This document shows, piece after piece, positions 8,329 to 21,500 of a stretch of 64,000 nt of DNA. The DNA is from an uncultured Alphaproteobacteria bacterium (lineage in GTDB: Bacteria; Pseudomonadota; Alphaproteobacteria; Pelagibacterales; Pelagibacteraceae). The notes below the pieces were generated by a model. The model was not told where the DNA came from and did no database searches. It worked only from the letters and a program-made list of their open reading frames with translations. Location of the stretch: assembly GCA_903869725.1 (NCBI GenBank), contig CAIQAD010000017.1, positions 1 to 64,000 of the forward strand, written 5' to 3'. Every line of letters starts with the position of its first letter. The first letter of the stretch is position 1. The position numbers and the translations under genes were made by a program.

Positions 8329-8724
8329 TTAACTAACCTTGCAAAGGATTTCTCCTCCTAATTTTTGCTCTCTAGCTTCATTGTCTGACAAAATTCCTTT
8401 GGATGTTGAAATAATAGAAATTCCAAGACCGTTTTGTATTTTTTTTATACTTTCAAATCGTGAATAAATTCTTCTACCAGGTCTAGAAACTCTCTCGATT
8501 TCTTTGATAACTGGATCTCCGTACATGTATTTTAAATTAATTTCTATATTTTCAAATTTAGCTTCTTTATTAACAACATAATCTTGAATGAAACCTTCTT
8601 TTTGAAGAACATCTAAAACAGCTTTTCTTAACCTAGAACTTGGCGCTGAAACTTTCTTTAGACCTCTCATTTGTCCATTTCTAATTCTTGTAATTAAATC
8701 TCCAATTGGATCTGTAATTTTCAT
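8329..8724 (-). CDS. rpsH: 30S ribosomal protein S8
   Basis: DPIGDLITRIRNGQM; SRPGRRIYS; GLGISIISTSKGILSD. Confidence 0.98.
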   Translation of the reverse strand: MKITDPIGDLITRIRNGQMRGLKKVSAPSSRLRKAVLDVLQKEGFIQDYVVNKEAKFENIEINLKYMYGDPVIKEIERVSRPGRRIYSRFESIKKIQNGLGISIISTSKGILSDNEAREQKLGGEILCKVS

Positions 8725-17962: not shown

Positions 17963-18334
17963 TTATTTAGGTCTCTTTGCTCCGTATTTAGATCTTTGCT
18001 GTTTCATTTTAGTAACGCCCTGCGTATCTAAAACTCCTCGAATTGTATGATAACGAACTCCAGGTAAATCTTTCACCCTTCCTCCTCTAATCATTACAAC
18101 AGAGTGTTCCTGTAAGTTATGTCCTTCTCCTGGTATGTAACTTGTAACCTCAAAACCATTTGAGAGACGTACGCGCGCAACTTTTCTTAATGCCGAATTT
18201 GGTTTTTTTGGAGTAGTTGTGTAAACTCTTGTACACACACCTCTTTTCTGAGGACATTCTTCTAGCGCTGGAACTTTATCCCTTACTTTTGGTTTAGTTC
18301 TTCCTCGCTTAACTAATTGATTAATAGTTGGCAT
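17963..18334 (-). CDS. rpsL: 30S ribosomal protein S12
   Basis: [45 protein letters not shown]-like region. Confidence 0.98.
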
Positions 18335-18434
18335 AATTTTTAAAAATTTATTTAAGGAAGCAACAAGGACTAGTTTTAAGTCTGTTGGTAGTGGTTTAAG
18401 TGCTCTAGGGCCTTACATACTACCTTAAAAAAGT
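18335..18434 (-). promoter_or_regulatory. structured 5' leader RNA of rpsL-rpsG-fusA (candidate)
   Basis: About 100 nt between predicted TSS and rpsL ATG; hairpin GGTAGT...ACTACC (18387-18424) with inner TAAG/CTTA and GC/GC pairs, and hairpin CAACAGACT-TAAAACT-AGTC(CT)TGTTG (18361-18387). Confidence 0.6.
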
Positions 18435-18440
18435 TTCCGC

Positions 18441-18468
18441 ATAATACTTAAATTAAACCAAAGGTCAA
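18441..18468 (-). promoter_or_regulatory. sigma70-like promoter for the str operon
   Basis: Sense TTGACC - 16 nt - TATTAT in the 187-bp rpoC-rpsL gap. Confidence 0.65.
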
Positions 18469-18521: not shown

Positions 18522-21500
18522 CTACTTAGCGGCTTCAATTTTTTCTGGTTCTTTTATCTTGACGCTTTGAGCGTTTTGCAACTCAATATCTCTTTGTCTA
18601 GCAATTTTGGAATATTTAAAGGTACTATCTCCTGTTCCAGCAGGAATTAATCTTCCAACAATAACATTTTCTTTCAAACCGTGAAGAACATCTACTTTTC
18701 CTTTGATAGCCGCCTCAGTAAGAACTCTCGTTGTTTCCTGGAATGAAGCTGCAGAAATAAATGATTTAGTTTGTAATGAAGCTTTTGTAATTCCTAATAA
18801 CACAGGTTCAGATTGAGCAGGTTTTTTTCCTTCAGAGGATAATTTTTTATTTAATTCATCAAGATCTATCTTATCAACTAATTCACCTGCTAAATATGAC
18901 GTATCGCCTGAAGTTTTTATTTCAACTTTTCTTAACATTTGTCTGACGATAACTTCTATATGTTTATCGTTAATAATAACGCCTTGTAATCTGTAAACTT
19001 CTTGAACCTCATCTATAAAATAATTTGCTAACGCTTCAATACCTAAAATTCTTAAAATATCATGAGGAGCCGGGCTTCCGTCTAGTAAGTATTCTCCTTT
19101 TTTAATTTCTTCTCCAGGATTAAAATTAACTTGTTTGCCTTTTGGAATTAAATATGAAGATTCAACTCCATCTTTGGATTTAATTGTAATTTTTAATTTT
19201 CCTCTTACTTCTTTACCAAATTCAATTTTACCATCATTTTCAGCAATTATTGCTCCTTCTTTAGGTTTTCTTGCTTCAAATAATTCTGCAACACGAGGTA
19301 ATCCTCCTGTAATATCTTTTGTTTTAGAGGTAGCTTTTGGTAAACGAGCTAAAACGTCTCCTGCATTTACTTTATCTCCGTCTTCTACAGATAAAATTGT
19401 TTCCGGAACTAAATAATATCTTGCTTCATTGTCGTCAGCTTTTTTAACAACTTTTCCTTTATTATCTCTTAAAGTAATTCTAGGTTTAAGATCTAAATTT
19501 TTAGATTGTCCTCTCCAATCTAAAACTACTTTTGATGAAATTCCTGTAGTTTCATCAGTAACATCTGTGATCGAAGCACCATCAATTAAATCAACAAAAC
19601 TTACAACTCCTTCAGTCTCGGAAATTACTGGTAAAGTATATGGATCCCATTCACAAATTTTTTGGTTCTTTTTAACTGGTTGATCATTTTTTACAAAAAG
19701 TTTTGATCCATAAGGTATTTTGTATATCGCTACGTTAGTTCCGTTCTTTTCAATGATTAATTCTGTATTTCTTCCCATAACAATCAATTGCTTGTTAGAA
19801 TCTTCAATCAAATTATTATTAGAAATTTTTAAAATGCCGTCAGATGGAGATGTAATTGATGAATCTTGTTTAATTTGAGCTGTTCCTCCAACGTGAAAAG
19901 TTCTCATAGTAAGCTGTGTTCCGGGCTCACCAATAGATTGAGCGGCTATCATTCCAACGCACTCTCCAATTGCAACTGGTCTTCCTCTAGCTAAATCTCT
20001 TCCATAACAAGTAGCACAAATTCCATCTTTGGCCTCACATGTGATTGGTGAGTATACTTCTATAGATTTCACTCCTGCCGAGTCCATTAATTCACACTGC
20101 TTTTCTTCGATTAATTGTTTAGCTTTAACAATAACTTCTCCTGTATTTGGAGCTTTAATATCTTTTGCTGCAACTCTTCCTAGCGATCTCTCCGTTAAAC
20201 TGACGATAACATTTCCACCCTCAATAATTTCATGGACATTAATATGTTTTTTAGTGCCACAGAATTTTAATCTTACAATAACGTCTTGAGAAACATCGCA
20301 CAATCTTCGAGTCAAATATCCAGAGTTTGCTGTTTTTAACGCAGTGTCAGCTAAGCCTTTTCTTGCACCGTGAGTTGAGGTAAAATATTCAAGAACTGTT
20401 AATCCTTCTTTAAAATTAGAAATAATTGGGGTTTCTATAATCTCTCCAGATGGTTTTGCCATCAATCCTCGCATGCCAGCTAGTTGTTTCATTTGAGCAG
20501 CTGAACCTCTAGCCCCTGAATCGGCCATCATAAATATGGAATTTGTTTTAATTGATCCGTCAGCATTTGTTTTTGATGTAGAAATAATTTTCATCATTTC
20601 ACTTGCAATTTTATCAGTACATTTCGACCATTGATCGACTACTTTATTATATTTTTCACCTTTAGTGATTAGGCCTTCCGAGTATTGAGTTTCGTATTCT
20701 TCAACCATTTTCTTAGCGTCAGAAATAATATTAACTTTGGTGTCTGGAATAACTAAATCATCTTTTCCAAAAGATATTCCTGCTTTGAAAGCATGAAGAA
20801 AACCTAAACTCATTAGTTTATCGCAGAAGATAACTGTTTCTTTTTGTCCGCAATATCTAAAGATAATATCAATTAATTCAGAGATTTGTTTTTTAGTGAG
20901 AAGCTTATTAACTAAATCAAATGCAATCTTATGATGTTTTGGTAGAATACTAGATAAAATAAACCTTCCTACGCTACTCTGGTAGGTTTTTATAACTAAT
21001 TTATTTTTTTCATCTACTGTTTCAAATCTTGAAATAATTTTTGAATGAATATTAATAGATTTACTCTCAAGAGCTTGATTAATTTCATCTAAATTTAAAA
21101 AATATCCAACTGGCTTAGTTTCTATAGTACCAAAAAATTGCGACATGTAATAAATACCCAGAACCATGTCTTGTGATGGAACTATAATAGGCTTACCATT
21201 TGATGGACTTAATATATTGTTTGTCGACATCATTAAAACTCTAGCTTCTAACTGAGCTTCTAAGCTTAGTGGCACATGAACCGCCATTTGGTCACCATCA
21301 AAATCGGCATTAAAAGCAGCTGTTGTTAATGGGTGCAGTTGTATAGCTTTTCCTTCAATTAAAATTGGTTCAAAAGCTTGAATTCCTAATCTATGAAGCG
21401 TTGGTGCTCTATTTAAAAGAATAGGATGCTCTCTAACTACCTCTTCTAAAATATCCCAAACTTCAGATTTTTCTTTTTCAACTATTTTTTTAGCTTGCTT

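Follow-up and report, generated by a model that had tools for sequence, protein, structure and literature searches.

A conserved leader RNA upstream of rpsL in SAR11 bacteria contains a core that resembles the S8-binding site of 16S rRNA

Introduction

What occupies the gap between rpoC and rpsL in SAR11 bacteria, and could it govern the long string of genes that follows? We addressed this question in a 64,000-nucleotide stretch of DNA, here called the window, from a genome assigned to SAR11 (Pelagibacteraceae) on the basis of its gene order and the work of Meyer et al. Both genes lie on the minus strand, with the end of rpoC at 18522 and the start of rpsL at 18334, in agreement with the 187-bp gap of an original prediction made for this DNA. 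The rpsG gene follows rpsL after only 2 nt, as had also been stated, and is succeeded by fusA, rpsJ and the S10, spc and alpha genes to rplQ at 2092; the minus-strand string from rpsL to rplQ contains about 29 genes. The original prediction placed in the gap a promoter and a candidate structured leader with two hairpins that could be mutually exclusive, and considered it plausible that a control element of the S7 type had been relocated there.

The element itself is not new. Meyer et al. (2009) described an "rpsL motif" in the same gap of 'Candidatus Pelagibacter ubique' and in >900 metagenomic sequences, with a bulged P1, a three-stem junction, a covarying P2, and a nearly identical junction between P2 and P3 (PMC2704228). 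No partner was assigned to the motif, which was detected only in Pelagibacter and marine metagenomes (PMC2704228). The element in the window is a member of this published motif; what is added here is its extension across the class Alphaproteobacteria and a candidate assignment to ribosomal protein S8.

Results

Promoter and fold of the leader in the window

The features of the locus that are used below are as follows.

22688-18522, minus strand: rpoC
18463-18468, minus strand: promoter -35 hexamer TTGACC; with the -10 hexamer, 10/12 consensus matches
18441-18446, minus strand: promoter -10 hexamer TATTAT, at 16 nt spacing from the -35 hexamer
18423-18432, minus strand: outer helix P1, 5' strand UUUUUUAAGG; complementarity to the 3' linker in relatives beats shuffled and swapped controls
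18419-18424, minus strand: P2 lower stem, 5' strand GGUAGU (fold and covariation)
18415-18418, minus strand: P2 core, 5' side A-U-G-U, equivalents of 16S 595-598
18398-18414, minus strand: P2 upper stem with its loop; 4 pairs show compensatory changes
18393-18397, minus strand: P2 core, 3' side A-A-A-C-C, equivalents of 16S 640-644
18387-18392, minus strand: P2 lower stem, 3' strand ACUACC (fold and covariation)
18361-18387, minus strand: P3 hairpin; folds in the window, sequence varies between genera
18351-18357, minus strand: outer helix P1, 3' strand CCUUAAA, 16 nt ahead of the rpsL start codon
17963-18334, minus strand: rpsL (S12), proposed first regulated gene, without a Shine-Dalgarno sequence
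8329-8724, minus strand: rpsH (S8), proposed ligand gene, in the same string as rpsL; its translation keeps the S-T-S motif

The promoter TTGACC-16-TATTAT, which the original prediction had called good, is the top promoter-like site within the gap; a GC-rich discriminator separates it from the predicted transcription start near 18433-18435. The minimum-energy fold of the window leader contains the two adjacent hairpins that had been described, P2 and P3, which have the single base C18387 in common. The fold of the window leader was no better than that of dinucleotide-shuffled sequences, with non-significant folding energies for the 106-nt and 71-nt leaders (z = -0.87 and -1.16, respectively), and comparison across genomes was therefore required.

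The Rfam search that had been suggested returned no match for the window leader. At gathering scores, Rfam 15 matched only tRNAs in the 64-kb window, and at lax thresholds the only additional matches were to miRNAs and sRNAs by chance; likewise, 12 leader loci of relatives gave no match at the gathering score. The rpsL motif has no family in Rfam 15. A second DNA match in the same genome (C17:85527) was rejected as an AT-rich chance match and not a second element.

Conservation of the leader in Pelagibacteraceae

RpsL was found in 163 of 196 Pelagibacteraceae genomes, and the DNA upstream was taken and parsed into 104 leaders, two of which were corrected by hand. Upstream of the P2 hairpin, the rpsL promoter is nearly invariant in these leaders, with TTGAC kept in 102-104 of the 104, and the 7 nt following the -10 hexamer are 62% GC compared to 27% regionally. 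A conserved promoter and GC-rich discriminator are thus seen both at 18441-18468 and in relatives across SAR11. The near invariance of this promoter with its discriminator suggests growth-rate (ppGpp-type, stringent) control of the promoter alongside the RNA leader.

The covariation check on SAR11 spacers that had been proposed brought out compensatory changes in P2. In an alignment of 79 SAR11 sequences, 88.3% of P2 cells were paired compared to 77.8% after shuffling, and double changes occurred at 7 pairs in 121 cells compared to 33.6 in shuffled alignments, a level reached by 0 of 500 shuffles. Covariation was far lower in slid controls. The upper stem is 98% paired in this alignment, with double changes at 4 pairs, and closes a variable loop. 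The core between the two stems hardly changes: its 5' side is GU in 104/104 leaders, and its 3' side is AAAC in all of them with the single exception of one AGAC. RNAalifold recovered the upper stem alone from the SAR11 P2 alignment, because the lower stem is offset by one base in one genus. A model of this form (R1) matched 175 of 248 genomes of the order and, at E 0.001, nothing outside Pelagibacteraceae.

Outer helix P1, which the original prediction had missed, is well supported by complementarity between its two strands in relatives. The longest P1 helix measured 7.0 between lineage-matched complements, compared to 5.1 with shuffled linkers and 5.9 with swapped linkers. Both this comparison and the minimum-energy fold have P1 enclose P2 and P3 at a three-stem junction. 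The P2-P3 junction starts with an invariant UAAAC, and P3 is lineage-specific in sequence. These results do not bear out the proposed mutual exclusion of the two hairpins, which have one common base and of which P3 varies between lineages. The true overlap is between P1, whose inner bases coincide with the outer bases of the P2 lower stem, and this foot of P2; therefore, P1 and the P2 lower stem may compete for the bases that they share.

In Pelagibacteraceae leaders, the median distance from the end of the P1 3' strand to the rpsL start codon is 14.5 nt. A Shine-Dalgarno sequence precedes rpsL in 1 of these 104 leaders, and an intrinsic terminator lies between leader and rpsL in 0/104.

Related hairpins in other Alphaproteobacteria

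In the sister family f30, the rpoC-rpsL gap is about 130-150 bp long. The promoter is retained there, together with a hairpin of smaller size, AGUAG-GCG-GU-AGA(GAAA)UCU-AAAC-G-CUACU, whose outer stem shows a compensatory change in another genus (AGAAG/CUUCU). A Shine-Dalgarno-like GGAG lies about 10 nt upstream of rpsL in 30/30 f30 genes (L206-L235). Since a Shine-Dalgarno sequence is absent from 103/104 Pelagibacteraceae leaders, a change in rpsL initiation seems to separate the two families.

A descriptor drawn from the core of the f30 hairpin, in which GU and A(A/G)AC were required, matched upstream of rpsL in 16 of 68 other alphaproteobacterial leaders, compared to 0-6 in shuffled sequences and 0 on the opposite strand. 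Model R2, built from 16 leaders, three of them from f30, recovered further members outside its building set, and its rebuilt version R3 matched 50 of 387 class genomes with one match per genome; these class-wide counts are minima, as strict filters drop weak members. The distance from the hairpin to rpsL was 21-274 nt for 61 of 63 aligned members. Beyond Pelagibacteraceae, the hairpin has the consensus GG-Y-N-GU-RG...CY-A-N-A-C-R-C. In alignment A4, which was fitted to the structure and is hence biased towards it, 89.4% of cells were paired compared to 75.7% after shuffling, and double changes filled 142 cells compared to 55 (0/500 shuffles). The upper arm is 20-40 nt longer, with an unchanged core, in some Alphaproteobacteria (L254, L244, L349, and L300).

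Outside the class, a single weak match (E 0.009) was obtained among 299 genomes of the phylum; therefore, the element appears essentially confined to Alphaproteobacteria. R2 and R3 fail to detect the Pelagibacteraceae form directly. The 30 f30 loci gave 28 matches to the alphaproteobacterial sequence consensus, all within the leader, and one large SAR11 genus has the letters GUAG...CUAAACGC in common with the alphaproteobacterial hairpin. Judged by these sequences, f30 links the Pelagibacteraceae form to the hairpin of other Alphaproteobacteria, and the two are probably homologous. In the open literature, we found no description of an rpsL leader across Alphaproteobacteria or of an S8 leader at this position.

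Of 61 A4 leaders, 26 have a terminator-like hairpin in the stretch from the conserved hairpin to rpsL, compared to 7-15 in shuffled sequences; L244, L265, L278, and L300 are among the examples. In L261, a complement to the 3' strand of the conserved hairpin's outer stem, noted by eye, also lies beside the downstream U-run. The difference between 26/61 A4 leaders and 0/104 SAR11 leaders makes attenuation a plausible mechanism for only some of the Alphaproteobacteria outside SAR11.

Resemblance to the S8-binding site of 16S rRNA

S8 contacts helix 21 of 16S rRNA at (G597-C643)-N641, with the invariant A642 stacking on the protein's S-T-S motif; the site also contains a base triple, 595-(596-644), for which E. 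coli has A-(A-U) and T. thermophilus has G-(C-G) (PMC4176348). By position-by-position sequence comparison, the internal loop of P2 (G-U opposite A-N-A-C) resembles this S8-binding core. Helix 21 of SAR11 16S rRNA reads AGU...AAAC-U, with A at 641 compared to U in E. coli, and AAAC is common to the SAR11 leader core and SAR11's own helix 21. All SAR11 leaders have G-C at the 597-643 equivalent and A at the 642 equivalent. The equivalents of G597, U598, A640, A642, and C643 are invariant in 63/63 alphaproteobacterial members, an invariance partly built in, A642 included, as GU and A(A/G)AC were preset in the first descriptor; members found by model only, including one AUAC, obey the same core rule. 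The 641 equivalent varies (G 37, A 25, U 1). The 596-644 equivalent is a standard Y-R pair in 63/63 (U-G 32, C-G 23, U-A 8, C-A 0; Fisher p = 0.02), and one extra base stands between the 596 and 597 equivalents in these leaders. At the 596-644 equivalent, the window has U opposite C, unpaired, and many SAR11 leaders have no Watson-Crick pair.

A strict S8 descriptor, picked after the leader had been seen, gave its sole match in the 64-kb window in the leader, at 18416. Simulated sequence gave about 0.7 matches per 64 kb, and a match inside the short rpoC-rpsL gap is therefore unlikely by chance. The strict descriptor catches 41 of 104 SAR11 leaders, because other genera have extra or mismatched bases. 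Searching rRNA with the whole-hairpin model R2 was uninformative, with best scores of 7 bits or less that did not single out helix 21. The rpsH gene is found downstream of rpsL and in the same orientation in 9/9 readable clusters of other Alphaproteobacteria, a position that is consistent with S8 but does not single S8 out.

The core of 16S helix 11 (GU opposite AGAC) also resembles the leader and helix 21 cores; within helix 11, changes of the 5' pyrimidine appear to be matched by changes of the third base on the 3' strand.

Discussion

The leader is very probably a conserved cis-regulatory RNA. Of the original interpretation, a structured leader ahead of rpsL holds, given the compensatory changes in P2, the nearly invariant promoter upstream, and the wide conservation; the exclusivity of the hairpins and the relocated S7 site are not supported, and the element is not new. 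Conservation, covariation, position, and the resemblance to helix 21 are established at the level of sequence, and we infer an S8 ligand, repression, and translational coupling.

We lean, by a narrow measure, towards S8 as the ligand of the rpsL leader: the core is like S8's rRNA site and rpsH lies in the string, and the operon therefore probably senses its own product. An autogenous leader with S8 as its most likely ligand is, on balance, the best explanation of the whole. According to this explanation, the gap would supply a promoter and a structured 5' leader for the rpsL-rpsG-fusA-S10-spc-alpha string, and the leader would be the version found in SAR11 of a cis-regulatory hairpin that precedes rpsL in many Alphaproteobacteria and whose internal loop mimics the core of 16S helix 21 to which S8 binds. 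When in excess over 16S rRNA, free S8, the product of rpsH, would bind P2 and in SAR11 stabilize the P1-P2(-P3) fold. The 3' strand of P1 would then sit inside the ribosome footprint of the rpsL start, which lacks a Shine-Dalgarno sequence, and rpsL translation would be repressed. Repression would spread by coupling to closely spaced or overlapping downstream genes. SAR11 would probably use translational occlusion, and some other Alphaproteobacteria perhaps attenuation with the same sensor. The broader proposal that one S8-sensing hairpin before rpsL governs str-S10-spc(-alpha) across much of Alphaproteobacteria, by a translation block in SAR11 and attenuation in other orders, is tentative, and we rate its chances slightly below even.

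Other readings of the leader were weighed against S8. The proposal that an autogenous S7 site has been relocated ahead of rpsL from the spacer between rpsL and rpsG draws on the place of rpsG as second gene of the string and on the regulation of E. coli str by S7 (PMC2704228, PMC2965389). Moreover, an E. coli-type S7 site is not possible between rpsL and rpsG, because the 2-nt spacer leaves no room for it. However, the invariant core matches the S8 site position by position, and Meyer et al. saw no likeness to the S7 regulatory motif (PMC2704228), and we consider relocation of S7 unlikely. The same authors saw no likeness to the S8 regulatory site either, which counts against S8 (PMC2704228). 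That another product of the string, such as L4, S12, L2, or S10, is the ligand gains from the choice offered by about 29 genes, among which Meyer et al. could not pick a partner (PMC2704228); we judge it improbable, as scans of 16S and 23S rRNA with leader-type descriptors found no resemblance that would point to such a protein.

S17, the product of rpsQ in the same string, contacts 16S helix 11, and mimicry of this helix by the hairpin would make S17 the ligand. A loose descriptor does match SAR11 16S helix 11 (L272:311, genome G005), where G-Y-U-N-GU stands opposite AGRC. However, in helix 11 the third base of AGRC varies together with the 5' pyrimidine, whereas the leaders always have A whatever the pyrimidine. 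To our knowledge, no autoregulation by S17 has been described, and we regard this assignment as very unlikely. Similarly small is the chance that no protein is sensed, and that the structure protects the 5' end or tunes initiation while control is exerted at the promoter. Conservation of the promoter and GC-rich discriminator to the same extent as the hairpin, and terminators in 0/104 SAR11 leaders, would fit such a role, but an invariant internal-loop core between two stems that both change, found across the class, is typical of a binding site.

The S8 assignment, if true, would supply the partner that has been missing for the rpsL motif since 2009, and would explain how some of the sea's most abundant cells balance about 29 genes from one site. 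Leaders of ribosomal-protein operons are described as usually narrow in distribution, with which a class-wide family would contrast.

The window element shares with the rpsL motif of Meyer et al. (2009) its place in the rpoC-rpsL gap, three stems, a covarying P2, the P2-P3 junction, and an enclosing P1; relatives beyond Pelagibacteraceae, a long P2 lower stem that overlaps P1, and a candidate ligand are additions of the present analysis. The S7 site of E. coli str acts on the same operon, and autogenous control is expected in both cases, but it lies between rpsL and rpsG and the leader described here before rpsL, and no structural likeness was reported (PMC2704228). Attenuators in rpsL leaders were predicted elsewhere by Naville and Gautheret (2010), with no sequence or structure feature in common and no match to the Pelagibacter motif (PMC2965389). 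They resemble the present element in belonging to the leader of the same operon and, in part of Alphaproteobacteria, in a terminator-like hairpin, and differ from the SAR11 leaders, which have no terminator. A further comparison is with the S8 sites of 16S helix 21 and E. coli spc mRNA, which have the same G597-C643 and U598-A640 pairs, variable 641, and invariant A642 (PMC4176348), and the 595/596-644 arrangement of alphaproteobacterial leaders, G-(Y-R), may correspond to the G-(C-G) of T. thermophilus (PMC4176348). By contrast with these sites, the 5' side is longer by one base in alphaproteobacterial leaders, and many SAR11 leaders pair poorly at 596-644. The spc site lies at rplE and the candidate site before rpsL; if the assignment is true, S8 control would have moved from the spc operon to a new position at the front of the whole string.
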